NCBI GenBank assembly: GCA_030612725.1
Contig: JAUWNJ010000024.1
Coordinates: 1-47,623 of the forward strand
Origin: Planctomycetales bacterium
Lineage (GTDB): Bacteria; Planctomycetota; Phycisphaerae; SM23-33
Length of the DNA stretch: 47,623 nucleotides
Reading direction: 5' to 3'
Shown here: positions 21,561 through 41,531 of the stretch, in pieces
Layout: the number at the start of each line of letters is the position of its first letter
Position numbering within the stretch: the first letter of the stretch is position 1
Program-made: the position numbers and the translations under genes
The notes under the pieces: generated by a model
Seen by the model: the letters and a program-made list of their open reading frames with translations, nothing else
Told to the model about the DNA's origin: nothing
The model's database searches: none

Positions 21561-22964
21561 ATGTCGGTAACGAGAGCAACGAATGTGCTGTCAGCGGCTT
21601 TGGCCGTTGCGATTTTAGCATCCTCTGTGAGCGTATTTGCCGCCGACGAGAATCGCCCCGCCAAGGTCCGCAAACCGATCGCCGGTGCGACGGTCGGTCC
21701 CGAAAGGACAGGCTACAAACCGCTGCCGACCGGAAAAGTCCGCATCTGGGACACGATGACCACACGCTCCGGTTTCGACGCGGGCTGGAAAGGGAGAGAC
21801 AAGTGGGTCCAAGTTCCCTATGGGAAACTGGATTACAAGTTCCAGGGCGATCCCTTCCTCGAAGGGCACAACTTCTGGATTGCGATGCGTTCGAGTGGGC
21901 GCAGCGGGATATCTTTTTTTGCCAAGATGGACGCCACCGGCGCACCTTCTTCCCACGTCAAGGTGTACAGGTCTTACGACGCTCCGGTAACTCTGTCGGA
22001 CGGTAAGTACAGGGGAGGCGAGCGGCCCGGAAAACTTCGGTGTTACGGAGGTCTGTTGGCCCGGGTGAAGATATTGAAGAACCAAGCCGACGAACTCGTG
22101 GTCGAGAGTAACGCGCGTCCGCACGTTAGGCCCGGATTCAAGAAGGGATACTCGGTGAACGTCTCCACCACCTACCGAATTTCAGGCGGTAAGAGTTGGG
22201 TCGAGATCAAGCCTGTGCGTCAGGTTTCCGAACTGGGTCTGCACGGTGAGACCCGCCTGGCCGTCTGCCCGGAGGCCGGCAGGAACGGCGCAGATGCGGT
22301 GGCTGATTCATGGAAACATCCCGCCACCGCCGTTATCAATATGCCAACCACCAGCAAGATGATGTTCGATTACATGATGGACCGCGACGTCCTCCTGGTG
22401 ATGACCTGGCCGAACCCCGCCAAGGCCAAACCATACAACATTAATTGCACCGGCGGGGCCACCAAGGGCTGGAGCAGGATCGGAGAAGGATCAAGCCCAA
22501 AGATCATCTCTTCGCCTTTCGCCCGGTTCGGCGACGAAACCGAGCCGATTTACATCGGCGTCCTGGTTCACGGCTACTGGATGTATCAGAAGACCGACCG
22601 TCCCGTCAAAGCCGACCAGAAAATCGCCGGTAACTGGAAATGGCCTCTGACGCCCTGGCGAGGCCAAAATATCCGCGGCAGCCGATGGCGCCACGGCAAG
22701 GCCTGGATGCCAACCTATCCGGGCAAGTGGCGCCTCACCGGGTGCATCGACGGGAAGTATTACACACAGGAAGTGCTGGTTACCAAGGCCGATACGAAAA
22801 AAGACGCCTTCTCCTTCACCGCCCCGGTGGCCGGTAAACTGGAATACCTGATATTCTACCTCTACGACCGGACCGATCAGACGCCCAAAGACATCTCCAC
22901 CCCGATGGACATCTACCGCCAGACACAAGCGGAATTCAAAGGTAAGTCCGGCTCAAAAAAGTAA
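21561..22964 (+). CDS. Array paralogue 1 (type I), secreted protein of unknown function
   Basis: This 467-residue protein has a signal peptide of about 27 residues ending SVFA. I do not recognise the family. Shared landmarks, in order, are KVRIWDTMT, KWVQVPYGKLDYKFQGD, FLEGHNFW, TYRISGGKSWVEIKPVRQ, LHGETRL, VMTWP, YPGKWRLTGCIDGKYYT and YLYDRTDQTPKDISTPMDIY. The middle, with its YRI..GK.W.EI.P strands, looks like a large beta-sandwich of the kind found in carbohydrate-active enzymes. The last 90 residues look like a separate Ig-like domain. It is closest to paralogue 5: both carry LSDGKYR, RCYG, HVRPGF and IRGSRWRHGK. It is the first gene of the array. Confidence 0.85.
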   Translation: MSVTRATNVLSAALAVAILASSVSVFAADENRPAKVRKPIAGATVGPERTGYKPLPTGKVRIWDTMTTRSGFDAGWKGRDKWVQVPYGKLDYKFQGDPFLEGHNFWIAMRSSGRSGISFFAKMDATGAPSSHVKVYRSYDAPVTLSDGKYRGGERPGKLRCYGGLLARVKILKNQADELVVESNARPHVRPGFKKGYSVNVSTTYRISGGKSWVEIKPVRQVSELGLHGETRLAVCPEAGRNGADAVADSWKHPATAVINMPTTSKMMFDYMMDRDVLLVMTWPNPAKAKPYNINCTGGATKGWSRIGEGSSPKIISSPFARFGDETEPIYIGVLVHGYWMYQKTDRPVKADQKIAGNWKWPLTPWRGQNIRGSRWRHGKAWMPTYPGKWRLTGCIDGKYYTQEVLVTKADTKKDAFSFTAPVAGKLEYLIFYLYDRTDQTPKDISTPMDIYRQTQAEFKGKSGSKK

Positions 22965-23041
22965 AAGGGCGCGCAGGCGTGGCCTGCCAGAAGCTCCCGG
23001 CCTTGAAGGGGCTGGGCGGCAAGAAGAAAAGGAGACAAAGA

Positions 23042-24676
23042 ATGTCGGCAATACGAGCAGCAGGTGTGGTGTTGGCAGCATTGGTCGCCGTGGTTTCGGC
23101 ATCCCCGGCGGAAGCCGCAGCGCCGAAAGCGGTAAAGAAGATAACATTCTCAAACATCAAGGTTGCAGCCATAAAAAACACCTCGGTGGTCATTCGGTGG
23201 GACACCGATGTAGCAGCAACCGGGCAGATAGAGTATGGATTGAATACGCGTTACGGGAATCTGACCAAAGTTAAGAACTTGAACTATTGGCACCCCGTGA
23301 AGATCACCGATCTTACCGGAGGAAAGACCTACCATTACAGAATCCTCGCAACGGACATCGCAGGCAAGCAGACCGTATCCGTGGATTACACCTTCACCAC
23401 TCGTACTAAAGCGCAGTTACAGGCCGTTATAAGAGCAGCCAGGGCAGAGAAGGGGTTGCCGAAAACTTACTACGTAAAACCGGACGGAAACGACGGCAGT
23501 AACGGGTTAACAGTGGGAACCGCCTGGCGGCATCCATCCTATGCAGCCCAGCAGGTGGACGCGGGGGATACGATCCTTGTCCTGAAAGGGACGTGGAAAA
23601 AAGAGCAAATTCATTTCAAGAAGAGCGGATGCGACGTAGCGCCTATTACCATGAAAACACACAGCGGCGCCGTGAAACTCATCAACAGCAGCACGATTAC
23701 AATCGGGGCGGGACTGAAACATATCAACATAGACGGTAATTTTGTCCTGGACGGCGGCGGCGTACAGCCGGGGACCGGCGTACACCTGGGAACCGAGCCG
23801 AAACACATAACCATATCAGGTGTTACTGTAAGGAATATCAAGGGCGACGCCTTCGCCTACAGGAGGGGGCGTTATATCACTTTTGACGGAGTAACGGCTG
23901 AAAATGCGTCCGAACACGGCATCCTGAGTTTCGGGTATCCGTATAGCAGTGCGCTGATAGATTACGTCACGGTCAGGAACTGCACGATAAAGAATACTCA
24001 TCACAACGGTCTTGACCTTCACACCAACAATCACCACGTAACAGTGGAGAATAATTACTTTGAGGGAGTTACAAACTCCGCAGCCATATTCTGCCACAAC
24101 AAAAACGACAAGAAGATTGTAATCAGGGGCAACAAGATAGTGAAGTGCTCGCGGGGAATATGGCTGATTGGAACGGACGAATGCTTGATCGAAAAGAATA
24201 CTATGCTGAACAACAAGGAATACGGAATCCTTTTATATTGCACCGCCAGTAATCGCTTCGAAAAATCAGGCGTTCTGAATGTAACCATTAGAAATAACAC
24301 AATAGCCGGTTCGCAACGCGATGTGATGCTTTTGCCGCGGGCTAATAAGGCCAAAGCCGGAATTCGTCATATCCTGTTTGAAAGTAACTTCATCAAGGGA
24401 GGAGTTACGTTCTCTGGAGAAGAGATATCCGATATTACGGTGAGAAACCCGAGAGACATTTCGAGGAAGTATGTTCTATCATCTGATGTCTCCCGTTCGT
24501 TTCATGAGTTCACCGACGGCAGAACATTTTCGATCGACGGAAGCGGCAGGCACACCCGGCATCCGTTCCCTCGTGCAAGCCATACCGTTGTGGCCAGCGG
24601 GCCGACCCCGCCGCGAATCAAGAAAACCACGCCGCACCATCCGAATACACCGGTAAGGGAAACACCAACCGAGTAA
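23042..24676 (+). CDS. Secreted right-handed beta-helix protein with N-terminal FnIII-like domain
   Basis: The product is 544 residues. The signal peptide is MSAIRAAGVVLAALVAVVSA plus SPAEA. Residues 30-120 form a fibronectin III or phosphatase-N-like domain (GLNTRYGNLTKVKNLNYWHP, GGKTYHYRILATDIAGK). From about 145 the YYVKPDGNDGSNGLTVGTAW block opens a parallel beta-helix that runs to about 460, with typical rungs HITISGVTVRNI, VTVRNCTIKNT, VTVENNYFEG, IVIRGNKIVKC and VTIRNNTIAGS. This fold is shared by polysaccharide lyases, epimerases and glycosidases, but catalytic residues cannot be assigned. The C-terminus is Pro/Thr rich. The ATG at 23042 has AAGGAGA upstream and gives the signal peptide. 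Confidence 0.87.
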   Translation: MSAIRAAGVVLAALVAVVSASPAEAAAPKAVKKITFSNIKVAAIKNTSVVIRWDTDVAATGQIEYGLNTRYGNLTKVKNLNYWHPVKITDLTGGKTYHYRILATDIAGKQTVSVDYTFTTRTKAQLQAVIRAARAEKGLPKTYYVKPDGNDGSNGLTVGTAWRHPSYAAQQVDAGDTILVLKGTWKKEQIHFKKSGCDVAPITMKTHSGAVKLINSSTITIGAGLKHINIDGNFVLDGGGVQPGTGVHLGTEPKHITISGVTVRNIKGDAFAYRRGRYITFDGVTAENASEHGILSFGYPYSSALIDYVTVRNCTIKNTHHNGLDLHTNNHHVTVENNYFEGVTNSAAIFCHNKNDKKIVIRGNKIVKCSRGIWLIGTDECLIEKNTMLNNKEYGILLYCTASNRFEKSGVLNVTIRNNTIAGSQRDVMLLPRANKAKAGIRHILFESNFIKGGVTFSGEEISDITVRNPRDISRKYVLSSDVSRSFHEFTDGRTFSIDGSGRHTRHPFPRASHTVVASGPTPPRIKKTTPHHPNTPVRETPTE

Positions 24677-24694: not shown

Positions 24695-26077
24695 ATGACG
24701 CAGAAAATCACTACAAGAGCAATCGTTGCCGTGTTGTTAGTCCTTGCCTTTGGTGCTGTCGGAGAAGTTGTTGCCGCCGAGAAAGCAGGGGAGACCAAGC
24801 AGGTCGGCCCCGAAGGGACAGGCTACAAGCTGCTGCCGAAGGGAAAAGTCCAGGTCCGCATCTGGGAGACGCCGCGGAAATACGACCAGCGGTCCACCGA
24901 TTACGGATTCACTCTCCTGGCCTGGAAAGACCGCGCCAAGTGGAAGCAGGTCAAGTACGGGACGACGCCCGACCGGATCGAACGCGACGTGGTTATCGAG
25001 GGCGCGAACTTCTGGCTGAATCTCACCTGGCGGCCATGGGGCGGAACGGGCGGGCCGATGCTGTATGTCAGGACGACCAAGGCCGGTCGGCCAGGTCGGC
25101 ATAACCTGCTGAATCGTGGATACATAAAAGGCGGCATGGCCCATGTCCTTGACGTCGGCATCCGCGGAACCGGCAACCTGGGCTATATCAAGGTGATCAA
25201 GAACACGCCCGAAGAGGTGCAGATAGAAAGCGCCACGAAAGGCGACGTTACGCGGACTATCTACAGGGTTCTGGCCGGCAAGCCATGGGTCGAGTGCATT
25301 CCGGTCAAAAAATACGAGTTTCAGCGGATGCACGGCGAGACGCGGATAGTCATCGGCGCCGACGGCGTAAAGGACGGCAGCGACTGGGTGTGCGACGCCG
25401 GACGAGACTACAAAAAGGACGTCCTGGCCTGGTTTCCGCGGGCAAGTAAGTTTAACCTCACACCCTGCCTGGATTGCGACGCCATCTGGACGATGATGTG
25501 GGAGCCTCGCAAAAAATGGCGAACCAAGGGCATGACCTTGTACAAAAACCCCGACGTGAGCCAATGTATGGGTTCGGTGTATCACGGCAGCCTGCGGGCG
25601 GGGTGGAGCGAGATCGGGGAAGGCAATCCGCCCTTTATAGTGGGCGATACGTACACCCTCAACGACGGCGGAAAGTTCGTCATGGGTGTTTTGCCCTTCT
25701 ATTACTGGCACTACCAGCGAATCAACCGGGACGTCCAGAAGGACAAGGAACTCGTCATCAACTGGAAGGTGGCCTTTACTCGTCTCAAGAGAGTTTCGCC
25801 GGAATCGCCGTTCAAGACCGGCGGCCCGTGGTGGCCGACGTACGCGGGCAAGTGGCGAATCATCAGCCGGATCGACGGAAAGTATTACACAAGCGAACTC
25901 ACCATCGACAAGGCGGGGATAGGTAAGAAGCAACTGACATTCAAGCCGCCGGCGGCTGGGAAACTGGACTACGTGCTTATCTACCTCTACAACCGAACGA
26001 AGGAGACCCCCAAAGATGTCTATACCCCGATGGACATTTACAGCGAGGCGATCCTGGGGAAGAAACCCGCCGGGTAA
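24695..26077 (+). CDS. Array paralogue 2 (type II), secreted protein of unknown function
   Basis: The product is 460 residues with a signal peptide of about 27 residues (VLLVLAFGAVGEVVAA). Distinctive blocks are KVQVRIWETPRKYDQR, VVIEGANFWLNLTWRPWGGT, RPGRHNLLNRGYIKGG, NLGYIKVIKNTPEEVQ, MHGETRI and WWPTYAGKWRIISRIDGKYY. It shares the NLGYIKV.KNTPEEV and GKWR..SRIDGKYYT blocks with paralogue 4 and not with its immediate neighbours. Its C-terminal motif is PMDIYSE, where Ser replaces the otherwise constant Arg, and YLYNRT replaces YLYDRT. It lies 18 bases after the beta-helix gene, with AAAGGAAAG as a weaker ribosome binding site. Confidence 0.84.
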   Translation: MTQKITTRAIVAVLLVLAFGAVGEVVAAEKAGETKQVGPEGTGYKLLPKGKVQVRIWETPRKYDQRSTDYGFTLLAWKDRAKWKQVKYGTTPDRIERDVVIEGANFWLNLTWRPWGGTGGPMLYVRTTKAGRPGRHNLLNRGYIKGGMAHVLDVGIRGTGNLGYIKVIKNTPEEVQIESATKGDVTRTIYRVLAGKPWVECIPVKKYEFQRMHGETRIVIGADGVKDGSDWVCDAGRDYKKDVLAWFPRASKFNLTPCLDCDAIWTMMWEPRKKWRTKGMTLYKNPDVSQCMGSVYHGSLRAGWSEIGEGNPPFIVGDTYTLNDGGKFVMGVLPFYYWHYQRINRDVQKDKELVINWKVAFTRLKRVSPESPFKTGGPWWPTYAGKWRIISRIDGKYYTSELTIDKAGIGKKQLTFKPPAAGKLDYVLIYLYNRTKETPKDVYTPMDIYSEAILGKKPAG

Positions 26078-26189: not shown

Positions 26190-27551
26190 ATGTTAATGAG
26201 ACGAACAACAATCGTACTGTCGGCGGCGGTCGTTATAGTTTCAGCCCTTTTGTCGCACACTTTCGCCACCGACAAGACCCCGGCGTCTAAACCCGCGACT
26301 GTCGCGCCCAAAACCGGTTACACCCCCCTGCCGAAAGGGACGGTGCGGATATGGGACCTGGGAAAGAAATGTACCAAAAAGATCAAGGGCTTTTTTCACA
26401 AAGAGGGCGGGTGGTATTACCGGGATAACTGGATTCCGGTGCCTCACGGGACCACCGACTACAAGTTCAAGGGCGACTGCGCCCTGGAAGGGACGAATTT
26501 CTGGATACATCTTCACGGCCACAAGTTCGACGCCATCTTTATCTATCCCAAGGTGGACGACAAGGGCACACCCGGCGGCGACAATGAACTCTACAGGTCC
26601 CACTCCCCCGCCGGGTCGGGACTGCGAAACTACGGGCCCGGATCGAACAAAGCGCGTATCGTCAAGAATGATCGTGGCGAGATCGCCGTAGAGAGTGAAT
26701 CGCACCCTAGCAGAGGCTCGAGGGTTACGACCGTCTATAGGATACTAGCCGGCAGGCCCTGGGTGAAAATCACCCCCGTGCGCATGGCCACCGAGCAGGG
26801 CATGCACGGCGAGACCCGCATGCTCGTCTTTCCGGAGGCGGGCCGGAAGGGTCAGGATTTCCTGGCTGACGCTGCCATCTACGCCCCACACCACCCCAAC
26901 TACCACAAGATATCCTTCCCCACAAAGAGCCGAATGATGCTCGACCTGATGATGGACGATGACCAAATGTACGTGGTAACCTGGCCCACGCCGAAGAAGG
27001 CCAGACCGTGGGCCGACGTGAGCACAACCAACTACCACCGGGGCTGGAACTGGATAGGGGAGGGTAAGAGTGCTGTATGGGGCAGCTCGTTCGCCTATTT
27101 CGGCGACGAAAAGGAACCGATTATCATTGGCTCGCTCCGGTTCGGCTACTGGCACTACCAGAAGATCGACGCGAAGGTCAAGGCAGGCGAGAAATTCACA
27201 GGTCAGTGGAAGTGCGTGCGGACGCGGCTGGGGTACAGACCTTACGCCAAAGAGATAGCCGCCGGATACCCCTTCATGAAAGGCGCTCCATGGAGGCCGC
27301 TCTACCCGGGAAAGTGGCGCATGATCGGCTGCATAGACAAAAAGCACTACACCCAGGAGGTGATAGTCAAGAAGGCCGATACCGGCAATTCGGGCTTCGT
27401 CTTCACCAGCCCCGTTTCAGGGACACTTGAGTACCTGGTGATGTACCTCTACGATCGGACGAAAGATACTCCAAAGAACGTTTACACCCCGATGGACATT
27501 TACCGCCAAGCCATCCAGGGGGAAAAACCCGCTGCTACGACGAACAAATAA
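26190..27551 (+). CDS. Array paralogue 3, secreted protein of unknown function
   Basis: The product is 453 residues. The ATG at 26190 was chosen over an in-frame TTG at 26154 because it begins the signal peptide directly (MLMRRTTIVLSAAVVIVSAL). Its first 50 residues are almost the same as those of paralogue 5, including ATDK.PASKPA and APKTGY, but the body differs. Landmarks are TVRIWDLGKKC, NWIPVPHGTTDYKFKGD, LEGTNFWIHLHGH, VTTVYRILAGRPWVKITPVR, QGMHGETRM, VVTWPTPKKARPW, YPGKWRMIGCIDKKHYTQ and YTPMDIYRQ. The N-terminus looks exchanged by recombination within the array. Confidence 0.84.
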   Translation: MLMRRTTIVLSAAVVIVSALLSHTFATDKTPASKPATVAPKTGYTPLPKGTVRIWDLGKKCTKKIKGFFHKEGGWYYRDNWIPVPHGTTDYKFKGDCALEGTNFWIHLHGHKFDAIFIYPKVDDKGTPGGDNELYRSHSPAGSGLRNYGPGSNKARIVKNDRGEIAVESESHPSRGSRVTTVYRILAGRPWVKITPVRMATEQGMHGETRMLVFPEAGRKGQDFLADAAIYAPHHPNYHKISFPTKSRMMLDLMMDDDQMYVVTWPTPKKARPWADVSTTNYHRGWNWIGEGKSAVWGSSFAYFGDEKEPIIIGSLRFGYWHYQKIDAKVKAGEKFTGQWKCVRTRLGYRPYAKEIAAGYPFMKGAPWRPLYPGKWRMIGCIDKKHYTQEVIVKKADTGNSGFVFTSPVSGTLEYLVMYLYDRTKDTPKNVYTPMDIYRQAIQGEKPAATTNK

Positions 27552-27565: not shown

Positions 27566-28912
27566 ATGTGGAAGACCAAAGTATGTGCGTTTTTGATGAT
27601 AGCGACGGTGTGGGCGGCGACTGCCGAAGCCGAAAAACCGCGGGCAGGCTACCGCCGTCCTAAACCCGGAACAGTCCGCCTGTGGGACTTGAGGAAGGCC
27701 TACGGCAGGAAACTCAGCATGGGATTCGTGGGTTGGAAGGATCGCGCGCAATGGCGACAGATACCCTACGGTAAGACGCCGGAGACCGTCGAGCACGATG
27801 TCGCCCTGGAAGGGGCCACTTTTTTCTTCAATATCACCTGGAGGTCGGACAGTTACATCAGCGGCCCGGTGTTGTATCGCAAACCGAAGCCTTCAGACCC
27901 CAAGTGTCCTCGCCACAACCTGCTTTACCGCGGGTGGTTCACGCCCGGAGGCCTATGGGCCGGCGGCGGAAACCTTGGATACATAAAGGTTCTGAAGAAC
28001 ACGCCGGAAGAAGTTGTGGTGCAGAGCGCGGGCAGGAAATCCAACAAGGACAAACGGGCATCCGCCCAGGTCGTTGCGAACTACGGCGTCAAGGCCGGCA
28101 AGCCCTGGCTGGAGATCACCCCCGTCAGCCAATGCAGCACGGTCGGGATGCACGGCGAGTCGAGGTTCGCGATCCTCCCCGAAGGTATGAAGGACGGAAC
28201 GGACTACGCTTACGACGCTCTCAAGGACCTGGATCAGGACAAGAAGAATCGCTACACGGTCATCCCGAACCACTCCGCGAAAATGCTCCTGGATTTCGTA
28301 ATGGACGACGACAATCTCTGGATACTCATGCCGACTCCCGCCGACCCGAAATCAGGCCCGGACCGCGGTATGCCCGTCCAATACCGCAAACGACGCTTCA
28401 TGCTGTCGAACCAGGTGAACGGGTACCACGCCGGATGGAGCAGCATCGGGGAAGGAAAGTGCGGGAGAGTCGTCTCGGCGCCATACGCCTTCTTCATGGG
28501 CAAAAAGATCGCCATTGGACACCTGCGCATCGGATACTGGCATTACCAGAAAATTGACGCGCAGGTCAACAAAGGCAAGGACTTCAAGATTAACTGGAAG
28601 TACGCCTATGAGCGGAAAGTGGCCGGAAGCCCGTTCAAGACGAACGGCCCGTGGTGGCCTATGTACGCGGGCAAGTGGCGAATGGTCAGCCGGATCGACG
28701 GGAAGTACTACACCACGCCGATAACAATCGCCAAGAACGGCGTCGGCAAAAAGACGCTGACGTTCAAACCGCTGGCAGACGGAAAACTGGAGTACGTGAT
28801 CATCTACCTCTATGACCGAACCAAAGACACCGCCAAAGGCGTCTATACCCCGATGGACATCTACCGCGAGGCCATCCAGGCCAAGAAACCGGCATCGCCT
28901 TCTGTCGATTGA
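27566..28912 (+). CDS. Array paralogue 4 (type II), secreted protein of unknown function
   Basis: The product is 448 residues with a short signal peptide (MWKTKVCAFLMIATVWAATA, then EAE). Landmarks are GTVRLWDLRKAYGRK, QIPYGKTPETVEHDV, LEGATFFFNITWRSD, CPRHNLLYRGWFTPGGLWAG, NLGYIKVLKNTPEEVV, LEITPVSQ, GMHGESRFAIL, WWPMYAGKWRMVSRIDGKYY and YTPMDIYRE. It pairs with paralogue 2. The usual MTWP block is changed to LMPTPADPKSGPDRG. It begins 14 bases after paralogue 3, with AAAGGAG upstream, so the two are surely co-transcribed. Confidence 0.84.
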   Translation: MWKTKVCAFLMIATVWAATAEAEKPRAGYRRPKPGTVRLWDLRKAYGRKLSMGFVGWKDRAQWRQIPYGKTPETVEHDVALEGATFFFNITWRSDSYISGPVLYRKPKPSDPKCPRHNLLYRGWFTPGGLWAGGGNLGYIKVLKNTPEEVVVQSAGRKSNKDKRASAQVVANYGVKAGKPWLEITPVSQCSTVGMHGESRFAILPEGMKDGTDYAYDALKDLDQDKKNRYTVIPNHSAKMLLDFVMDDDNLWILMPTPADPKSGPDRGMPVQYRKRRFMLSNQVNGYHAGWSSIGEGKCGRVVSAPYAFFMGKKIAIGHLRIGYWHYQKIDAQVNKGKDFKINWKYAYERKVAGSPFKTNGPWWPMYAGKWRMVSRIDGKYYTTPITIAKNGVGKKTLTFKPLADGKLEYVIIYLYDRTKDTAKGVYTPMDIYREAIQAKKPASPSVD

Positions 28913-28932: not shown

Positions 28933-30318
28933 ATGTTGATGAAACGAACAGCAATTGTATTGACGGCAGCGATCGTTATCTTTGCCGCCCTTTCGTCGCG
29001 CAGTTCCGCTACCGACAAGGCCCCGGCGTCTAAACCCGCACCTGCTGTCGCGCCCAAAACCGGTTATCACGCCCTTCCGGCAGGGAAGGTCCGTATCTGG
29101 GACACCATGGGCAAGGACTCGCACAAGCATTATGGCTGTGAGGCATGGAAACGCCGGGACAAGTGGGTCCAGGTTCCCTATGGAAAACTCGACTACAAGT
29201 TCAAGGGAGACCCCATCCTCGAAGGGCACAACTTCTGGGTCTCGCTGCATTCAAGCCCCCGCGACGCGAACTTTATCTATGCCAAGATGGACGCCGACGC
29301 CACCCCTTCGCGCCACAATGAGGCATACAGGTCATATTTCGCGCCCGTAACGCTCTCGGACGGAAAATACAGGTGGGGAGAGAAGCCCGGAAGGCTCCGC
29401 TGCTACGGGGAAGGATCGGTCCGGGCAAAGATACTGAAATACCAGCCCGGAGAACTCGTGGTGGAAAGCACCTCGCATCCGCACGTCCGCCCGGGATTTC
29501 CTAAAGGATACTCGGTGAACGTTACAACCACCTATCGAATCCGAGGGGGCAAGAGTTGGGTTCAGATCAAGCCGGTCCGCCAGGCCTCCGAGCAGGGTAT
29601 GCACGGCGAGAGCCGATTTAACATTATCCCCGAAGCCGGCGACGGCGGGGCCGACTTCGTGGTCGATTCTCTGCGGCTTCCGGCGCACCACGTTGTGAAG
29701 TTTCCGACCACCGGAAAGATGCTTCTCGATTTCATTATGGACGCCGACATTATATGGGTGATGACCTGGCCTGACGGGAAACGGGCTGCACCTTACACCG
29801 GCAACGCACCGGGCGGATGGCACGCCGGGTGGAGCCGCGTCGGCGAAGGCGCCTGCGACAGGGTCTGGACCGCCCCGTTCGCAAAGTTCGGCGGCGAAAA
29901 GGATCCGATTTACATCGGTATCCTCGTCCACGGCTACTGGAAGTACCAGAAGATAGCGAAAACAGTCAAAGCCGGCCAGGACGTAACCGTTAAGTGGCGC
30001 CGGGCCTATACACGGAACATCCGCGGCAGCCGATGGCGCCACGGAAAACCGTGGTCGCCGACTTATCCGGGCAAGTGGCGGCTGACAGGCAGAATCGGCG
30101 GCAAATACTACACCACCACCGTTACCGTCGGTAAGGACGACGCTAAGAAGAGCGAATTCACCTACAAGTCCCCCGCCGGCGGCAAACTGGAATACCTGAT
30201 ATTTTACCTCTACGACAGGACCGACGAAACTCCCGCCGACGTCGTTACCCCGATGGACATCTACCGCCGGACACAAGCGGACTTCAAGAGCAAGTCTAAA
30301 GCCAAAGAAGTGAAATAA
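28933..30318 (+). CDS. Array paralogue 5 (type I), secreted protein of unknown function
   Basis: The product is 461 residues from the ATG at 28933, which follows AAGGAGA and opens the signal peptide MLMKRTAIVLTAAIVIFAAL. The body is closest to paralogue 1, with KWVQVPYGKLDYKFKGD, LEGHNFWVSLHSS, LSDGKYRWGEKPGRLRCYG, HVRPGFPKGYSVNVTTTYRI, GKSWVQIKPVRQASEQGMHG and RNIRGSRWRHGKPWSPTYPG. The first 50 residues instead match paralogue 3. The C-terminus has YLYDRTDETPADVVTPMDIY. The mosaic of a type I body and a paralogue-3 leader points to recombination among array members. Confidence 0.85.
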   Translation: MLMKRTAIVLTAAIVIFAALSSRSSATDKAPASKPAPAVAPKTGYHALPAGKVRIWDTMGKDSHKHYGCEAWKRRDKWVQVPYGKLDYKFKGDPILEGHNFWVSLHSSPRDANFIYAKMDADATPSRHNEAYRSYFAPVTLSDGKYRWGEKPGRLRCYGEGSVRAKILKYQPGELVVESTSHPHVRPGFPKGYSVNVTTTYRIRGGKSWVQIKPVRQASEQGMHGESRFNIIPEAGDGGADFVVDSLRLPAHHVVKFPTTGKMLLDFIMDADIIWVMTWPDGKRAAPYTGNAPGGWHAGWSRVGEGACDRVWTAPFAKFGGEKDPIYIGILVHGYWKYQKIAKTVKAGQDVTVKWRRAYTRNIRGSRWRHGKPWSPTYPGKWRLTGRIGGKYYTTTVTVGKDDAKKSEFTYKSPAGGKLEYLIFYLYDRTDETPADVVTPMDIYRRTQADFKSKSKAKEVK

Positions 30319-33395: not shown

Positions 33396-36215
33396 ATGTC
33401 AGTAACGAGAACGACAAGTGTGCTGTTGGCGGCGCTGGCCGCTGTGATTTTGGCGTCGCCGGACTTCGGCGAGCTCAGTCGAGCCGCGGGCGGATTCGCC
33501 GCCGATAAAGCCAAAGCGACCAACAAAAGCGCCGGCAGGATTAAGGTCGCCAACGCCAAGCCGGCTGCGAAGGTCAAAAGCGAAGGATACAAACCTCTGA
33601 AACCCGGAACGGTCAGAATCTGGGACACGAACAGAAAATACACTCACTTCTACGTGGGCTTCGTAGCCTGGAAGGACCGGGCCATGTGGACCCAGGTTCC
33701 CTACGGCAAGACAGGCCATAAGTTCAAAGGCGAAGCCGTGATGGAGAACGACAATATGTTCCTCTTCCTCCACTCCGGTAAGCAGTCCGGGCCGATACTC
33801 TATGCCAAACTGGGCAAGGGGAAGCATTCCATCCACAACGCTTTGTACCGTGTCTGGTGGGAGGACGGCGGAAAGGTTCATCACTATGACACTCCCCCGC
33901 GGGAGAACCGAATCGAGAAGAATAACGCGGGTGAAGCGGTGATAGTGAACCTCGCCGCCGGCCACAATTTCACCAAAAGCAACAAACTGTACGGCAAAAT
34001 GATCAATGCCGGACGGTATCGGATACTCGGCGGCAGGCACTGGCTTGAGGTAACGCCGGTCAAAGGCAAAAAGGCGGACGAGATGGGTTATCACGGCGAG
34101 GCGCGTGTGATGCTCGTGCCGGACTATAAGAACGGCAACGATTACGTATTCGACTCGACAGAGAACCGCTACGCGACCTATGGTCGGCACGGTTCGCCGG
34201 ATGAACCGGTTCTTCCATCGAGGCGGGCTGACACGGTCAGGGCGGCCACGGACAGGCCGGGGTGGGGCTCATACCCGATGACCCCCCCGGGCAGCAAGAT
34301 GCTTATCGACCTCCAGATGAGCGGCGGGCAGTTCATGTGGACAATGACCTATCCCTCGTGGAAGGTGGCCAAACCCTACATTAACTGGTGCGTGGGCGGC
34401 AGGCTGGACCGATGGCCTCCATGGCGGGGAAGGCGCGACAGGGGCGGCAACGTCTGGAGCGCGCCCTACGGCTGCTTCGGTAATCAGAAAATAGTGGTCG
34501 GCGTGCTCAACAGCCCCGGCAGTTGGCACCCTGAGGTCGTCGGGACCCCGCTGAAAGGCGGTTTCGTGGACGGTAAACCGGTCCAGGCCGGCGAAAAATA
34601 CACCTGCAAGTGGAAAGCCCGGTACGCCGGTAAGTGGCGAATGACCGCACGCTTCCGAGACGACAAAGCGCCGGGTAAGGGGCGGTATTACTCCCAGCAG
34701 GCAACGATGGACAAAGGCGGCAAATTTGTATTCACCTGCCCCGCCGCCGGCAAACTTGAGTACATCATTCTGTACCTTTACGACAGGACGGACAAGACCC
34801 CGCCTGAGGTCGGAACACCGATGGACGTCTATCGGGAAACGATCACGGGAAAGAAGGTCAAATCGACCGCACCGGCCGACAAGGTAAAGGGCGGTCGGGC
34901 GACCGGACTGAAGGCGGGAGTTGCGACGGTCAGGATCACGCCTCCTGTCGGCGTCATCACCAACGGCGGAAAGAAGACCACCGGCGTCGCCGGCGAACTG
35001 TTCGCCAAGGCGCTGGTTCTCAACGACGGGAAGACCACTGCGGCGCTGATAACCGCGGATGTGATACTGTTGGGTAAGAAAATTGTGGCAGAGACGCGCG
35101 AGCGGATCGAAAAGACAACCGGCATCCCCGGCTCGCACGTGATGTTCGCAGCCTCACACACGCACTGTTCCCCTGTAACCATGCGCCAGGCCTGGGGCAC
35201 GGGGGCGAAAATGGTGCCCGATCAGAGTTACCTCGACAAGTTGGTGACGAAGATGGCGGGCGCTGTGTCCGAGGCGAACTCGCGACTGGTCGAGGTGAGA
35301 GTCGGCGTGGGTGAAGGGCGAGCGCCATATAACATCAATCGCTGGATTCCCACGCCGAAGGGTCGCCTTGCCTTCAGATGGGGCCCCTACCCCGCCGGTC
35401 CGACCGACGAGACGCTGTCGGTTCTTCGGCTGGACCGGACGGACGGAACGCCGCTGGCTGCGGTGGTCAACTTCGCCGCACACCCCACCGTGATGAGTTG
35501 GGGCAGGCAATTCTGCGGCGACTTTCCCGGCTTCCTTCAGGAGACCCTGGAGAAGGTTTATGACGGGAAGATGACGGTAATGTTCATCAACGGGGCGGCT
35601 GGGGATTTAAAGATCAAGTGGCTGTGGAAGAGGAGGCGCGGCTCGCTCGGTTTTGCCTACGGCGGCGCCAAAGACGCCCGACGATGGGGAAGGATTATTG
35701 CCGGCGTGGCGCTGACGGTTCTGGAACAGGTCAAGACGAACAATCAGCCGCTACGGATCAGTATTTCCTCAAAGCAGGTCGAGTTTCCGATGGTTCCTTT
35801 GCCGTCGGCCGAGGATGTCCAGAAGCAATTGGCTGCGAAACGCAAGGCTGGCAGGAACACTACCTGGGAAGAGCGCATCCTTCCGTCGCTGCGGGATGGG
35901 ACGGCCCCGAAGACAATTGCCGGTGAGGTCCAGTTGCTGCGACTGGGCGATGATATCGCCCTGCTGGCGGTTCCCGGTGAGTTGTTTGTCGAGGTGGGCC
36001 TGCGAATGAAGAAGGAACTGGGCTGCAAGCACCTGTTCATCGTCGGCTTCGCCAATGGCTATGTCGGGTATTTGCCTTCCGCGAGGTTTGCCCAGCTGGA
36101 GGGCAACAGGAAGGTTTACGAGTGGTACAAGTTTTTCTGGTATCCCGCCGGATTTTCCGAGGGCGTTGAGCCGGCGCTGATGTCGGCTGCGAAGGAACTG
36201 ACCGGAGTGAAATAA
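33396..36215 (+). CDS. Array paralogue 6 fused to a neutral/alkaline ceramidase domain
   Basis: The product is 939 residues. Residues 1-480 are a full array-family protein: signal peptide, GTVRIWDTNRKYTHFYVGFV, WTQVPYGKTGHKFKGEAVME, YHGEARVML, MTYPSWKVAKPY, YAGKWRMTARF, YLYDRTDKTP and TPMDVYRE. After a linker (VKSTAPADKVKGG), residues of about 505-939 match neutral ceramidase: GLKAGVATVRITPPVGV, ITADVILLGKKIVAETRERI, the metal-ligand block FAASHTHCSP, NFAAHPTVMS and FINGAAGDLK. Ceramidases cleave the amide of ceramide; bacterial relatives can have other substrates. The ATG at 33396 follows AAAGGAG, 14 bases after the beta-helix gene. The frame is continuous across the junction. Confidence 0.9.
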   Translation: MSVTRTTSVLLAALAAVILASPDFGELSRAAGGFAADKAKATNKSAGRIKVANAKPAAKVKSEGYKPLKPGTVRIWDTNRKYTHFYVGFVAWKDRAMWTQVPYGKTGHKFKGEAVMENDNMFLFLHSGKQSGPILYAKLGKGKHSIHNALYRVWWEDGGKVHHYDTPPRENRIEKNNAGEAVIVNLAAGHNFTKSNKLYGKMINAGRYRILGGRHWLEVTPVKGKKADEMGYHGEARVMLVPDYKNGNDYVFDSTENRYATYGRHGSPDEPVLPSRRADTVRAATDRPGWGSYPMTPPGSKMLIDLQMSGGQFMWTMTYPSWKVAKPYINWCVGGRLDRWPPWRGRRDRGGNVWSAPYGCFGNQKIVVGVLNSPGSWHPEVVGTPLKGGFVDGKPVQAGEKYTCKWKARYAGKWRMTARFRDDKAPGKGRYYSQQATMDKGGKFVFTCPAAGKLEYIILYLYDRTDKTPPEVGTPMDVYRETITGKKVKSTAPADKVKGGRATGLKAGVATVRITPPVGVITNGGKKTTGVAGELFAKALVLNDGKTTAALITADVILLGKKIVAETRERIEKTTGIPGSHVMFAASHTHCSPVTMRQAWGTGAKMVPDQSYLDKLVTKMAGAVSEANSRLVEVRVGVGEGRAPYNINRWIPTPKGRLAFRWGPYPAGPTDETLSVLRLDRTDGTPLAAVVNFAAHPTVMSWGRQFCGDFPGFLQETLEKVYDGKMTVMFINGAAGDLKIKWLWKRRRGSLGFAYGGAKDARRWGRIIAGVALTVLEQVKTNNQPLRISISSKQVEFPMVPLPSAEDVQKQLAAKRKAGRNTTWEERILPSLRDGTAPKTIAGEVQLLRLGDDIALLAVPGELFVEVGLRMKKELGCKHLFIVGFANGYVGYLPSARFAQLEGNRKVYEWYKFFWYPAGFSEGVEPALMSAAKELTGVK

Positions 36216-36227: not shown

Positions 36228-38438
36228 ATGCGAATACAGGTTATTCAAGCCACGTTGTTTCTCGGAGTCGCCGCTTGCAGTTGCGGGGCGGCTGGGGCGG
36301 ACCAAAAGCAACTCGCCAAGCCCTGGGAGCATGAGGTTACCGAGGACCTTCACGTCAAAAAGTACCCCGGAAACAAGGTCATGTGGGACCTTCTGACCCG
36401 CCTTGCCTACGAAATGCACGACGACGCACTGTCGGGAGTAACGAATCGGGAACAGTGGAAGAAGGAACGCCCCGTAATCAGAGAACATTTTCTCTACATG
36501 CTCGCCCTGGAGCACGCGATAAAAGAGCCGGCAAAGGCCGTCGTCGCAGCCAAGGCCGAAGCGGGCGGCTATGTCGCCGAAGCCATTGTTCATTCAACCT
36601 ATGATGGCTGTTCGGGACAGGGACTGCTTATGTATCCCCGGAAGATTACCAATCCGCTTCGGCTTGTCATTTGGGGAGATAACTGGGGAATGGGGCCGGG
36701 CAGTGTGTCGGGGCCATTGAAAGAAGGAATGAAATGGGTCCGGAACGGATATGCAATCTTCTTTCTCGACACAGTGGGCCACTCGCACCACAAAAGCGTC
36801 GCACTGTACGGTAAGTGGTGGTGGCTTTCGCACGGGCAGAACGAACCCGGAGAGAATGTAATCAGGTACCTCAAAGCGATTGATTATCTTGCTTCAAGAA
36901 AAGAAATCGATTCCCGGCGCATCGGCGTTTTCGGAATTTCCGGCTGGGGAGCATGCACCTGGTATGTCGCGGCGCTGGATGAAAGAGTGGCGGCTGCGGT
37001 TCCAGCAATAGCATCAACTGCTCTTGCCAAAGCGTTGATTTCCTCTCCCGAACTGGGACTGACGGAAAAACCCGAATGGATACGCACCAGAAAAATCAAG
37101 GCCAACTGGAAGGGGCTGACCGCTTCAGCCGGCGGTTGTGATCAGGCGTATTTCTACAACTGCTACAGGCATGATGCGCCTGATATTGAGGCATTGTGCG
37201 CGCCACGCAATGTTCTGGAAATCGCCGGAGAGATAGACGACTTTGCACAAGGCGCACCGGATAACCACGCCAGGATGAAAAAGGTATGGGACTTTTATCC
37301 GAAACGCGGAAATCTGGCTTTGTACGAGCATACCGGTGGTCATAACCTGGGGCCGTTGGGCAAAGTCAAACGTGATGAGTGGTTCGCCCGTCATCTGAAA
37401 CCGACTGCAATGACGCAACTGAAAGATTCGCCTGATACTGTGAAGGCTCTCAGTAAATCGCTGGCGAAGTGGAAGAAAACTCCTGATTCATGGGGAAATC
37501 CGAGGAAAAGACCCGAAATTTGGTCTTTTGTCAAACTGGCCAAGCCGCCCGCGATTAAAAATACCGGACAATGGGAGAAGTATAAAAAGAAAGTTCTGGC
37601 AGACCTGAAAGAAAAGGTCTTCGGGGGATTCCCCGTCCGGAAGTGTGCTCTGAATGTAAAACGGGGCGAGGAAGTTAAAGAAAAAAATTACGTCCGACAG
37701 GATGTTACCTTTGCCGTTGAACGGGGAGTGAGGCTTTCAGCGAGGCTGTACCGCCCCGCGAAATTCAATCGTGCAATGCCGGCTTTAATCTATATCAACA
37801 ACTCGTACAAGGAGTCGGGTGGAACTCTACCACCGGAATTGAAACCTCTCACAAAGGATCACGTTATTCTGTCTCTCGATGTCAGGGGATTCGGTATTAC
37901 CCGGATCGGCGGCAAATACGTCCAATGGCCTCCCGATTATTACATATCCTGGCCCTGGTTTCTTCAGCGGTGCGCTTCACTTACGGGAAGAACCTTCGAT
38001 TCCATGCGCGTATGGGACGTAATGCGGGCGGTTGATTTTCTGGTGGAACACCCGGCCGTTGATAAAAAGAACATCTGTGTTTATGGAAAACCAGCCGGCG
38101 GCTTGGATGAAGTAAATGTCCCGAAGAAGGAAATTGTGGGGATAAGCGGGCCTGGGCAGAAGGAAACCGACCTGGGAATTGTAGGGTTATATGCAGCCGT
38201 TTTGGATTCACGGATTACCCGTGTTTTCCTCAACAACCCGTCCACGACCCATTTCAAGAACAATCGCACCATATACCTAAATGTTCTCAGGATACTGGAC
38301 ATACCCCAAGCGGCTGCATTGGTCGCGCCGCGCGAGGTGGTTTTCATCGGCGAGATGCCCGACGAGTTCGAGTGGTCAAAGGAAATTTGTAAAATATTGG
38401 GGGAAAACAGTATGCGGACAGGCGATTTTTCAGAATAA
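36228..38438 (+). CDS. Secreted tandem-domain alpha/beta hydrolase, acetylxylan-esterase-like
   Basis: The product is 736 residues with a short signal peptide (LFLGVAACSCGAAGA). Two alpha/beta hydrolase units are seen. The first, at about 100-395, has the nucleophile elbow FGISGWGACTWYVAALDERV (Ser near 237) and the His in LYEHTGGHNLGP. The second, at about 450-736, has VILSLDVRGFGITRIGGKYV and VYGKPAGGLDEVN at the elbow position, where no Ser is present, so this half is probably inactive or rewired. Such esterases remove acetyl or similar groups from glycans. It starts 12 bases after the ceramidase fusion. The C-terminal end may be frameshifted near GGGGGAAAA at 38398-38406. Confidence 0.82.
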   Translation: MRIQVIQATLFLGVAACSCGAAGADQKQLAKPWEHEVTEDLHVKKYPGNKVMWDLLTRLAYEMHDDALSGVTNREQWKKERPVIREHFLYMLALEHAIKEPAKAVVAAKAEAGGYVAEAIVHSTYDGCSGQGLLMYPRKITNPLRLVIWGDNWGMGPGSVSGPLKEGMKWVRNGYAIFFLDTVGHSHHKSVALYGKWWWLSHGQNEPGENVIRYLKAIDYLASRKEIDSRRIGVFGISGWGACTWYVAALDERVAAAVPAIASTALAKALISSPELGLTEKPEWIRTRKIKANWKGLTASAGGCDQAYFYNCYRHDAPDIEALCAPRNVLEIAGEIDDFAQGAPDNHARMKKVWDFYPKRGNLALYEHTGGHNLGPLGKVKRDEWFARHLKPTAMTQLKDSPDTVKALSKSLAKWKKTPDSWGNPRKRPEIWSFVKLAKPPAIKNTGQWEKYKKKVLADLKEKVFGGFPVRKCALNVKRGEEVKEKNYVRQDVTFAVERGVRLSARLYRPAKFNRAMPALIYINNSYKESGGTLPPELKPLTKDHVILSLDVRGFGITRIGGKYVQWPPDYYISWPWFLQRCASLTGRTFDSMRVWDVMRAVDFLVEHPAVDKKNICVYGKPAGGLDEVNVPKKEIVGISGPGQKETDLGIVGLYAAVLDSRITRVFLNNPSTTHFKNNRTIYLNVLRILDIPQAAALVAPREVVFIGEMPDEFEWSKEICKILGENSMRTGDFSE

Positions 38439-38542
38439 TGATCGGCGCCCCGGATGTCTATCGCTGGACAATCCCGGGCAGACCATCGGGAAAGGAAAAT
38501 AAGTCGCATGATGCGATACCTTTCTGTGTTTTCCGTGTTTAG
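38438..38542 (+). pseudogene. Possible remnant or frameshifted tail after the esterase gene
   Basis: A frame just downstream of the esterase reads IGAPDVYRWTIPGRPSGKEN. It weakly resembles the C-terminal end of array paralogues, such as TPMDVYRETITGKKVKS in paralogue 6. It could be a scrap of a deleted paralogue or the true esterase tail reached by a one-base shift at 38398-38406. The match is short and may be chance. Confidence 0.25.
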
Positions 38543-38574
38543 TAGCAGGATACCCGTGAACGTTCACAGGCCAT
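38525..38574 (+). promoter_or_regulatory. 50-bp upstream repeat, copy A, with GTGAACGTTCAC palindrome
   Basis: This segment is 49/50 identical to 40001-40050. It contains the perfect 12-bp palindrome GTGAACGTTCAC at 38556-38567. It ends about 30 bases before the start codon of paralogue 7. It may be an operator, an RNA leader element or a repeat copied with the gene. Confidence 0.7.
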
Positions 38575-38603
38575 TTGATGCCGCTATTACAGGAGACTAA
38601 AAA

Positions 38604-39977
38604 ATGTCGGTAACGAGAACAACAATTGTGGTGTTGACGGTTTGGGCCGCTGTGATTTTGGCGGGGTCGATGACCGGATTTGCCGCCGATGAGGCCAAGA
38701 CGACCAACACCGCCGCCAAGGTCAAGGCCGCCGCCGGTCGGCAACCGAAGCCGACCACTCGCCCAGCCAAGACGCCTGAACCGACTGCCGCTGATGCCGC
38801 GAAGGTCAAGCCCGGGGGAGGTCCCGGCATCCGGCTGTGGGATACAGGCCGGACAGTTACCAAGAAACACTACGGAATGGCGCGCCAGTGGGCGTACCGC
38901 AACGAATGGAAACTCGTGCCATACGGCAAGACCGACTACAAGTTCAAAGGCGACGCCATGCTGGAGGGTGAGAGTTTTTTCCTGTCATTTCACTCCACCA
39001 TGCGTGACGCGGTGATGCTCTGCGCCAAGATTCCGCCTAACAACCTCGTCAAGAACCACCGCGCGAAGACCGTCTGGCCTGGTCGGCATAACGAGTTCTA
39101 CCGCGCCTACAAGTCGAAAGGCGGAGGAAACGTCTATGGCGAGGGGAACGATATGACCAAGTTCAGGATCAAGAAGTACGACAAGAACGAAATCATCGTA
39201 CAGGCTTCTTCCAACCTGACGCGGGGAGTCGTCGTAACGACCGTCTATCGGACATTGGCAGGGCGTCATTGGCTGGAGATAACGCCGGTGAGGGCCACCA
39301 GTCAGGGGATGCACGGCGAGACGCGAATAGTGGTCGGTCCGGAAGGACAAGCCGACGGCGGCGATTATGTCGCCGACACTCTCAAGATGCCCCGGAATAA
39401 AACCTCGTACCTTTCTCCGAAAGCCAAAATGATGCTGAACCTTCAGATCAGGCTCTACGGCGGAGTCCCATCCACAGGGCACTATGTGTGGGTGATGACC
39501 TGGCCTGATACAAAGCAGGCCAAACCCTACTTTTACAATCACGTCGGTGGCGACCCGGCAGGTTGGAATCATATCGGCGAAGGCTACCCGCCGATATGGA
39601 CGGCGCCATTCGCTCACTACGGCAAGGGCAAAAACGCCAAAATCGTGGTGGGCTGCCTGAACAACCTGGAAAACTGGAATTACGAGCGAGTGAATAAGCA
39701 AATCGCCGCCGGCGACGACTACACCAGCAGCCGGAAGGCGCCGTATCCGGGAAAGTGGAGACTCACCGGCTGTGTGGACGGCAAATACTATACTCAGACA
39801 ATTGTCCAGACCGGTACCGACGGTAAATTCACTTTCCGCAGCCCCGTTTCGGGGACGCTGGAATACCTCCTGATGTACCTTTACGACCGGACCGACAAGA
39901 CCCCGGGTAACATCTCCACCCCGATGGACATCTACCGGCAGGGGATCCTGCCCAAGCCGTCGAAAAAGAGCAAATAA
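38604..39977 (+). CDS. Array paralogue 7, secreted protein of unknown function
   Basis: The product is 457 residues with a signal peptide (MSVTRTTIVVLTVWAAVILA, then GSMTGFA). A low-complexity Ala/Pro/Thr/Lys linker follows at about 30-72, and the family body starts at GPGIRLWDTGRTVTKKHYGM. Landmarks are KLVPYGKTDYKFKGD, LEGESFFLSFHSTMRDAVML, TTVYRTLAGRHWLEITPVRA, QGMHGETRI, VMTWPDTKQAKPYF, YPGKWRLTGCVDGKYYTQ and STPMDIYRQ. It lacks the W.HYQKI insert region that several siblings carry before GKWR and is shorter there. The leader is nearly the same as those of paralogues 6 and 8. AGGAGAC lies nine bases upstream. Confidence 0.84.
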   Translation: MSVTRTTIVVLTVWAAVILAGSMTGFAADEAKTTNTAAKVKAAAGRQPKPTTRPAKTPEPTAADAAKVKPGGGPGIRLWDTGRTVTKKHYGMARQWAYRNEWKLVPYGKTDYKFKGDAMLEGESFFLSFHSTMRDAVMLCAKIPPNNLVKNHRAKTVWPGRHNEFYRAYKSKGGGNVYGEGNDMTKFRIKKYDKNEIIVQASSNLTRGVVVTTVYRTLAGRHWLEITPVRATSQGMHGETRIVVGPEGQADGGDYVADTLKMPRNKTSYLSPKAKMMLNLQIRLYGGVPSTGHYVWVMTWPDTKQAKPYFYNHVGGDPAGWNHIGEGYPPIWTAPFAHYGKGKNAKIVVGCLNNLENWNYERVNKQIAAGDDYTSSRKAPYPGKWRLTGCVDGKYYTQTIVQTGTDGKFTFRSPVSGTLEYLLMYLYDRTDKTPGNISTPMDIYRQGILPKPSKKSK

Positions 39978-40000
39978 AGTCATCCGGAGCGATACATCAT

Positions 40001-40050
40001 TGTGTTTTCCGTGTTTAGTAGTAGGATACCCGTGAACGTTCACAGGCCAT
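40001..40050 (+). promoter_or_regulatory. 50-bp upstream repeat, copy B, with GTGAACGTTCAC palindrome
   Basis: This is the second copy of the element at 38525-38574, with one difference (T for C). The palindrome is at 40032-40043, and the ATG of paralogue 8 is 29 bases after the element. The position relative to the start codon is kept in both copies. Confidence 0.7.
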
Positions 40051-40079
40051 ACCAGGCCGGAATATAAGGAGACTAAAAA

Positions 40080-41531
40080 ATGTCAGTAACGAGAACAATG
40101 AGTGTGGTGTTGATGGCATTGGTCGCTGCATGTTTGGTGTTTTCGGCGGTCGGCTTTGCCGACGACGAGACCAGGACGACGAACCGTACCACCAACGCCG
40201 GCGCGGAAAAAGACCTGGCCCAACTTCCCGCAGCGGTCAGGAGCGGCGTCAAGACCAGGTTGACTCGCCCACCGTCGGCCGGTGCGACGGTAGGATATAA
40301 ACCTATGCCGAAGGGCGCCGACTACGTCCGCGTCTGGGACCTCGGCAAAAAGTACACCTACAAACACTACGGGCCCAAGAAGCAATGGGCCAATCGGGCC
40401 AACTGGGTACAGGTGCCCTACGGTAAAACCGCCGATTACAAGTTCCGCGGCGACTGCATGCTCGAAGGTCCTAACTTCTGGATGTCGCTGCACTCCAGCG
40501 GACACGACGCATGCTTCCTCTACAACAAGATAGACGCCAAAGGAACCCCCTCCCGCCACAACGAAATGTACCGTTCCTACGACCAGCCGGGCGGGTTGAG
40601 AACCTACTGCGGCAGTTACGAGTACAACAAGATCATAAAAAACGAGCGGGGCGACATAATCGTCGAAAGCAAAACCAAGACTCGCAGGAGAAAGGGAGTC
40701 GGCGTATTCCTGATCAACCGCTACCGCGTCCAGGCCGGCAAGCCCTGGCTGGAAATAGAACCGATGAACAAGATGGTCTCCGAACAGGGTATGCACGGCG
40801 AGTCGCGGATTCACATCTCGCCGGAATCGCTTCCCGACGGGCAGGACTTCCTTGCCGACTCGTGGAAAAACAACCCCCCCACGAGCATATATCACCCCCA
40901 CACCAGCCGGATGCTGCTGGACCTGATTATGGACGACGACTGCATCTGGGCGATGATGTGGAAGACGACCGGAAAGATGCCGACAAGGGACAAAAGCCCT
41001 TATTTCCAGCACAGGTCGCGCAGCGACAACTGCCGCGGCGGGTATCCCGCCGGTTGGCAACGGATCGGCGAAGGTAAAAGCCCGCTGATTCTCACCTCCC
41101 CGTTCGTCAAGTACCGCGGCGAGAAAATGGTCCTCGGTATCCTGCGGATCGGGCACTGGCACTACCAGAAAATCGGCGCAACCGTCCAGGCCGACAAAGA
41201 TTACAAGGGCCTGTTCAAGTACGCCTATCAGCGCAAGGTCAAGAGTTCGCCATTCTCGACGGGCAAACGATGGTGGCCTATGTATCCGGGCAAGTGGCGG
41301 ATGATCGGGTGCGTCAACGGAAAGTATTACACCCAGCCTGTTACTGTTACAAAAGCGGACGTGGGCAAATCGGAGTTCACCTTCCGCAGCCCGCTGGCGG
41401 GCAACCTCGAATACGTGGTCTTTTATCTGTACGACCGGACGGACGAGACGCCAAAGGACGTCTTTACAATAATGGACATCTACCGCCAAGCCGTTATCGG
41501 CGACAAGAACAAAACGAAGCGTGGTACTTAA
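40080..41531 (+). CDS. Array paralogue 8, secreted protein of unknown function
   Basis: The product is 483 residues with a signal peptide of about 27 residues (VLMALVAACLVFSAVGFA) and a 45-residue Thr/Ala-rich linker. Landmarks are YVRVWDLGKKYTYKHYGPKK, WVQVPYGKTADYKFRGD, LEGPNFWMSLHSSGHDACFL, PSRHNEMYRSYDQPGGLRTY, EQGMHGESRIHI, HWHYQKIGATVQADKDY, YPGKWRMIGCVNGKYYTQ and IMDIYRQ, where Ile replaces the usual Pro. AAGGAGAC lies eight bases before the ATG. Its TAA overlaps the ATG of the racemase gene by one base, which ties the racemase to the array transcript. Confidence 0.85.
   Translation: MSVTRTMSVVLMALVAACLVFSAVGFADDETRTTNRTTNAGAEKDLAQLPAAVRSGVKTRLTRPPSAGATVGYKPMPKGADYVRVWDLGKKYTYKHYGPKKQWANRANWVQVPYGKTADYKFRGDCMLEGPNFWMSLHSSGHDACFLYNKIDAKGTPSRHNEMYRSYDQPGGLRTYCGSYEYNKIIKNERGDIIVESKTKTRRRKGVGVFLINRYRVQAGKPWLEIEPMNKMVSEQGMHGESRIHISPESLPDGQDFLADSWKNNPPTSIYHPHTSRMLLDLIMDDDCIWAMMWKTTGKMPTRDKSPYFQHRSRSDNCRGGYPAGWQRIGEGKSPLILTSPFVKYRGEKMVLGILRIGHWHYQKIGATVQADKDYKGLFKYAYQRKVKSSPFSTGKRWWPMYPGKWRMIGCVNGKYYTQPVTVTKADVGKSEFTFRSPLAGNLEYVVFYLYDRTDETPKDVFTIMDIYRQAVIGDKNKTKRGT

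Follow-up and report, generated by a model that had tools for sequence, protein, structure and literature searches.

An array of eight predicted exported paralogues with a galactose-mutarotase-like fold model in an uncultured sediment bacterium

Background

The described proteins that come closest in structure to the family reported here are found among polysaccharide lyases, glycoside hydrolases and galactose mutarotase. The best VIA-align match to our model is the central supersandwich domain of the PL26 exo-rhamnogalacturonan lyase (5xqg), with Z 14.6 over 224 residues at 4.0 Å. PL26 members are secreted carbohydrate enzymes, as the present family is proposed to be, and have the same sort of fold; however, the identity is only about 6% and no shared flanking domains were found. 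Although PL26 is the best fold match, membership in it was rejected on sequence: hhalign comparison with 6 and 14 PcRGLX-bearing proteins gave a probability of 0.1-0.2% (from small alignments without secondary structure, hence of weak power), and no PDB sequence matched. Supersandwich domains of GH38, GH36, GH129 and GH81 share the fold as well (Z about 11-14, or Foldseek E-values down to 5e-6), but in those enzymes they come alongside a distinct catalytic domain, whereas the family described here is mostly stand-alone. The same fold is present in the GH174 endo-1,3-fucanase 9k1g (Z 11.8 over 232 residues) and in PL4 rhamnogalacturonan lyase (Z 11.4 over 190 residues), from which the family differs by rmsd 3.2-4.2 Å, with no sequence similarity found. 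Galactose mutarotase (GalM) has the fold too, with Z 11.6; in contrast to it, the family is predicted to be exported, occurs as tandem paralogues and does not match the Aldose_epim Pfam profile. No catalytic residues of the solved relatives could be transferred onto the family, and a narrow search found no literature on lyases with a galactose-mutarotase-like fold.

Results

Gene content of the array

The window, that is, the whole stretch of 47,623 nucleotides analysed, comes from an uncultured sediment bacterium. Eight intact paralogues lie side by side on its plus strand, interleaved with other genes (Table 1). They align along their whole length with 48 invariant columns, and their pairwise identity of 36-63% is far beyond chance. 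The motifs HGE[TSA]R, [PA]GKWR, YLY[DN]RT and MD[IV]Y occur once each and in fixed order in all eight. The gaps between genes measure 12-30 bp, with exceptions of 112, 165 and 102 bp, and co-transcription is plausible from this spacing. A GGAG/AGGA-like ribosome site stands ahead of most of the paralogues. Judged by a hydrophobic, signal-peptide-type leader at each of the eight N-termini, the proteins look exported.

Table 1. Genes of the array and of the adjoining divergent group
Feature	Position	Strand	Evidence
DegT aminotransferase, DHDPS-family aldolase, aldo-keto reductase and NeuB-like genes behind the regulator	16549..20473	-	PF01041, PF00701, PF00248, PF03102
Divergent GntR/FCD regulator	20470..21243	-	PF07729, PF00392
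Paralogue 1 of mutarotase-like family, 467 aa, exported (predicted)	21561..22964	+	ORF, alignment, motifs
Exported beta-helix protein, Fn3-like N-terminal domain, weak Chondroitinase B (PL6) similarity	22979..24676	+	PF13229 E 2.9e-32
Paralogue 2	24695..26077	+	ORF, alignment, motifs
Paralogue 3, copy used for model	26190..27551	+	ORF, alignment, model, motifs
Paralogue 4	27566..28912	+	ORF, alignment, motifs; L029 orthologue dN/dS 0.17
Paralogue 5	28933..30318	+	ORF, alignment, motifs; L029 orthologue dN/dS 0.12
Companion protein, 1010 aa, central beta-helix (~346-684)	30349..33381	+	model; co-occurrence
Paralogue 6 fused to neutral-ceramidase-like amidohydrolase domain	33396..36215	+	PF04734 E 2.4e-11
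Exported double alpha/beta-hydrolase (acetylxylan-esterase / glucuronyl-esterase / prolyl-oligopeptidase-like)	36228..38438	+	PF05448 E 5.9e-12, PF22244 E 1.1e-6, PF00326 E 2e-7
Paralogue 7	38604..39977	+	ORF, alignment, motifs; L032 orthologue dN/dS 0.20
Paralogue 8, most widely conserved lineage	40080..41531	+	ORF, alignment, motifs, tree

An earlier, sequence-only reading of this DNA had described eight exported, same-strand paralogues with four ordered motifs and short gaps, belonging to a family it did not recognise, and this description holds. It had also placed a ceramidase domain and two beta-helix proteins in the array. The former exceeds the Pfam cut-off in paralogue 6; of the latter, the protein at 22979-24676 is recognised by Pfam, while that at 30349-33381 is supported by a model of which only the core is confident. 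The count of eight is right for the array but overlooked at least six further copies elsewhere in the genome. Three gene starts are to be moved: ATG 26190 is likelier for paralogue 3 than the TTG 26154 that opens the reading frame, ATG 28933 likelier for paralogue 5 than TTG 28909, and ATG 33396, preceded by AAGGAGA, likelier for paralogue 6 than GTG 33258.

No model in Pfam or NCBIfam matches any of the eight paralogues at a meaningful level, so that the earlier proposal does not founder on a known family common to all of them. The 31 relatives give nothing above the curated cut-offs of the same libraries, their marginal matches lying far below. The aldose-epimerase profile is unmatched by paralogues and relatives alike. 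When the A2 family profile was compared with all PDB sequences, the sole match had an E-value of 0.43 and was not GH174. None of the array genes has a known GH or PL catalytic domain scoring over the cut-off. Of the parts of a polysaccharide utilisation cluster, in which secreted proteins acting on glycans go together with a regulator and sugar-acid catabolism, the window encodes the esterase, beta-helix protein, GntR/FCD regulator, DHDPS-family aldolase, KDPG aldolase and kinase. The protein at 22979-24676 matches PF14592 with an E-value of 3.2e-5, slightly below the cut-off of that model. Rfam and tRNA scans of the window returned no match.

Predicted fold

An AlphaFold2 model of paralogue 3, for which 31 relatives were aligned, reaches pLDDT 86.3 and pTM 0.89. 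Against this model, 311 PDB chains reach a VIA-align Z of at least 8, in alignments that span about residues 22-425. Besides the matches given above, GH38 scores 14.3 and GH36 12.5. Models with no clear relative typically score 7-8, and since the scores obtained are well above this range, the predicted fold is galactose-mutarotase-like, as the sequence-only reading had named beforehand as support for its proposal. According to the model, the family is built on this supersandwich fold over most of the protein. The top Foldseek match is GH129 (8rzk, E 5e-6), and further matches include GH36, GH38, the YidC periplasmic domain, OpgG and heparinase III, all of which have the supersandwich fold. A viral structure library gave weak matches only. 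The fold and the type of gene cluster are already known, and the family itself is, on sequence comparison, absent from the libraries searched (Pfam, NCBIfam and PDB sequences). Within the scope of these three, it may represent an unnamed or very recent CAZy family.

Conserved residues and domain fusions

Residue numbers follow paralogue 3, the copy that was modelled. Weighted columns of 43 sequences show almost no variation at W29, W55, E74, Y157, H180, R184, D201, W295, R351, Y393, T401, M409, D410 and Y412. All eight paralogues keep these residues, including E74, Y157, H180, R184, D201 and W295. D201 is invariant; H180 and R184 are lost in one relative (L042). H180, R184 and D201 may serve in catalysis or binding, and the conserved C-terminal group (YLYDRT...PMDIY) is probably structural.

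Relatives in other loci are often joined to additional domains. A CBM4/9 fusion occurs in at least seven of them (L032, L035, L050, L053, L040, L025, L022 and others), LamG_3 together with CarboxypepD_reg in three (L041, L043, L021), and CBM9 with a sorting tail in one (L038). In L030, a protein of 1361 aa, the family domain sits behind a heparinase II/III lyase. Relatives in WOR-3 and FCPU426 have T9SS-type C-terminal tails. Copy 8 is stand-alone in the window, and close relatives of it have either one further CBM4/9 domain (L032) or a part made up of CBM4/9 and heparinase II/III (L030); by this comparison its lineage may have undergone a recent gain or loss of domains.

Copies, selection and distribution

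The genome contains 14 copies of the family: the eight of the array, another three on contig C12 and single copies on C32, C45 and C51. Orthologues of copies 3, 4, 5, 7 and 8 are found in a sister species (L029, L032) at 92-96% amino-acid identity, and in the tree each of these five copies pairs with its own orthologue. These five paralogous lineages therefore predate the species split. The dN/dS ratio against the orthologues is 0.25 for copy 3 and 0.13 for copy 8, with the remaining three in between or slightly lower (Table 1). The sequence-only reading had held that silent or decaying genes would speak against it; the genes are intact, and the overall range of 0.12-0.25 indicates purifying selection, so they are neither silent relics nor decaying. 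The same ratios rule out chance or decay as an explanation of the array.

Among 60 related genomes the family is present in seven (G000-G003, G025 and G029, plus G056 weakly). In a wider sample at least 4 of 392 genomes of the phylum carry it, a lower bound given that four candidates were scored per genome. A pattern-led scan of 84,980 species yielded 21 loci, from Planctomycetota, WOR-3, FCPU426, Latescibacterota, Spirochaetota and two archaeal metagenome-assembled genomes (MAGs); the two archaeal occurrences may be binning errors. The copy 8 lineage is the one present in most genomes. Spirochaetota members adjoin a planctomycete sequence in the tree, a position which suggests transfer of the family between phyla. 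Several relatives bear CSMAG isolate names, which denote a cold-seep MAG catalogue (PMC10491686).

The companion protein

No Pfam model reaches its cut-off with the 1010-aa companion. Over its full length the companion is modelled poorly (pLDDT 55), but the beta-helix at its centre is confident, and on this model the protein is a probable beta-helix. The helix is closest to that of the alginate C5-epimerase AlgG (Z 18.3, 3.2 Å over 219 residues, the model being weak elsewhere) and also resembles that of PL6 lyase (Z 14.1); the companion differs from both by extra N- and C-terminal regions and by matching no Pfam family. DPHD is the catalytic motif of the AlgG mannuronan C5-epimerase (PMC4444821). 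An AlgG-type epimerase was rejected for the companion: the fold agrees, but the DPHD motif is absent.

Homologues of the companion adjoin family members in L029, L033 (two copies), L037 (WOR-3) and L041. Among the 60 relatives they occur only in G000, G001, G002, G025 and G029, all of which bear the family. If genomes were independent, such co-occurrence would have a probability of 1.1e-6 by genome and 5e-5 by genus, values that are not corrected for relatedness. By genus, likewise with relatedness uncorrected, the companion is in 3 of 50, the same three as the family. The companion is itself strongly expanded in two related genera, with 22 matches in G025 and 18 in G029, and is in tandem in L033. 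Proteins related to the other beta-helix protein (22979-24676) are also found in the WOR-3 locus L037.

Ceramidase-like, heparinase and other glycan-related neighbours

The second half of paralogue 6 matches PF04734 with 43.4 bits, against a cut-off of 32.1. A ceramidase-like domain is likewise fused to a family member in Latescibacterota (L049), ceramidase-like genes are adjacent to family copies in L031, L048 and L050, and a His-Thr-His segment is conserved across the set. The similarity to neutral ceramidase in the PDB has an E-value of about 7e-4, and at ~420 aa the domain falls short of the roughly 650 aa of that enzyme. It may act on a non-lipid N-acyl group. A DegT aminotransferase gene directly precedes the ceramidase-like gene in L048, L086 and L087 (two loci of this genome and one of Latescibacterota); the window has both too, hinting at a recurring module.

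Heparinase II/III lies beside the copies on contig C12. It is present in all six strongly family-bearing relatives, but this link is weak because it is also present in 28 of the 54 others. In the contig C12 locus (L050), genes for a CBM-heparinase II/III protein and for two MttB-type methyltransferases surround the family copies, as do two ceramidase-like genes. A GH123 gene lies about 4 kb from the copy on contig C45, L035 has GH123-like similarity at its N-terminus, and the beta-helix neighbour in L037 matches 'Disaggregatase related'.

Discussion

The findings speak for a role of the array in processing a glycan outside the cell. The sequence-only reading had proposed a system directed at a glycan or glycolipid; the CBM and heparinase II/III fusions fit the glycan, while the glycolipid is weak: the ceramidase-like domain is a genuine and recurring partner but is distant from true ceramidases. 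In our fullest explanation, the secreted supersandwich proteins themselves cut the glycan as part of a degradation system, and we judge the chances of this whole account to be about even. Each copy would hold a stretch of glycan on its concave supersandwich face and, in the manner of a lyase or a hydrolase, cleave it with a set of conserved residues including His180, Arg184, Asp201, Tyr157, Glu74 and Trp295. The eight copies would differ in the linkages or decorations that they deal with. Cutting or processing of this polymer would also fall to the beta-helix proteins, removal of acyl or ester groups to the esterase, and removal of an N-acyl group to the ceramidase-like domain. Products would then be imported and metabolised, perhaps by the divergent GntR, DegT, DHDPS, aldo-keto reductase and NeuB genes.

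A substantial if lesser share of belief goes to a non-catalytic role, in which the secreted supersandwich would be an accessory or glycan-binding module that holds or presents the polymer, and the cutting would be left to the beta-helix, heparinase and esterase partners. Many of the best fold matches (GH38, GH36, GH129 and GH81) are accessory domains of glycosidases, the family domain itself is found attached to enzymes (a heparinase II/III lyase in L030, a ceramidase-like one both in L049 and in the window), and the H180/R184 pair is not universal, as L042 illustrates. However, the majority of copies are secreted on their own and are as large as a complete enzyme, several relatives have a CBM4/9 or LamG module anyway, next to which another would be redundant, and the near-invariant His, Arg, Asp, Glu and Tyr resemble an active site more. 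The high copy number of tandem secreted beta proteins (the companion's 22 matches in G025 and 18 in G029 among them), together with the T9SS-type tails of the WOR-3 and FCPU426 relatives, could alternatively befit an extracellular structural or adhesion system that degrades nothing; esterase, ceramidase-like and heparinase II/III partners, and GntR and catabolic genes next door, make this improbable.

We give slightly less credence still to a family that modifies sugars without cutting, for example as an extracellular mutarotase or epimerase. GalM has the fold in common and the companion's helix resembles AlgG, but Pfam reveals no aldose epimerase similarity, the companion lacks the AlgG motif and an eight-copy extracellular mutarotase would be unusual. 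A glycolipid or sphingolipid target, as the ceramidase domain might imply, is the most improbable of these readings: the fusion of PF04734 with paralogue 6, its place beside copies in three other loci and the conserved His-Thr-His segment speak for it, but the similarity to true neutral ceramidase is remote, the domain is shorter, and the heparinase II/III and GH123 partners indicate a polysaccharide.

Under the preferred reading of glycan cleavage, the nature of the substrate is the least certain step. It may be non-sulfated, with uronic acid and amino sugar. A uronic-acid, low-sulfate substrate is suggested, indirectly in each case, by the heparinase II/III partners, by genes for a KDPG aldolase and a PfkB kinase, and by the sulfatases of the genome, of which there are two only; this number makes a sulfated polysaccharide an unlikely target. 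Methanochondroitin was considered as a possible substrate, given the 'Disaggregatase related' neighbour in L037 and the GH123 or GH123-like genes near two copies. The KDPG/KHG aldolase and PfkB kinase genes (9610-11706, minus strand) lie close together about 10 kb from the array; they would suit uronate catabolism and might be unrelated to the array.

Much carbon in cold-seep and other anoxic sediments is locked in polysaccharides, the degradation of which is poorly known. Several features commend the family as a candidate for a new carbohydrate-active one: its fold is firmly assigned, one genome has at least 14 copies, fusions join it to CBM, LamG and lyase domains, and a partner family accompanies it in phyla as far apart as Planctomycetota and WOR-3. 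The array, with its eight diverged copies and sister-species orthologues for five of them, offers a natural set for mapping changes in specificity. It is possible, though we hold it doubtful, that a new class of polysaccharide-cleaving enzymes on the galactose-mutarotase-like fold, a second, undescribed family of secreted beta-helix proteins and a ceramidase-like N-deacylase make up a recurring system for a glycan outside the reach of known enzymes, passed between phyla and possibly archaea. In anoxic sediment, a heteropolysaccharide from the surface of archaeal or bacterial cells could be one such glycan.

Regarding regulation, catabolism and secretion, the divergent GntR/FCD gene is a candidate regulator of the array, and the genes behind it are a possible intracellular catabolic arm. 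The intergenic region (21244-21560) contains no perfect inverted repeats of at least 7 and no TNGT...ACNA as a GntR operator. An exact TTGACA-N16-TATAAT promoter-like site is located on the minus strand (21312-21285), just upstream of the GntR/FCD gene. Near the start of the window, pseudopilin-like N_methyl proteins and a T2SS F protein are encoded on the minus strand at 308-5790, with two large reading frames (832-2409 and 2434-3813) lacking a Pfam match between them. These secretion genes are a possible route for the array proteins.
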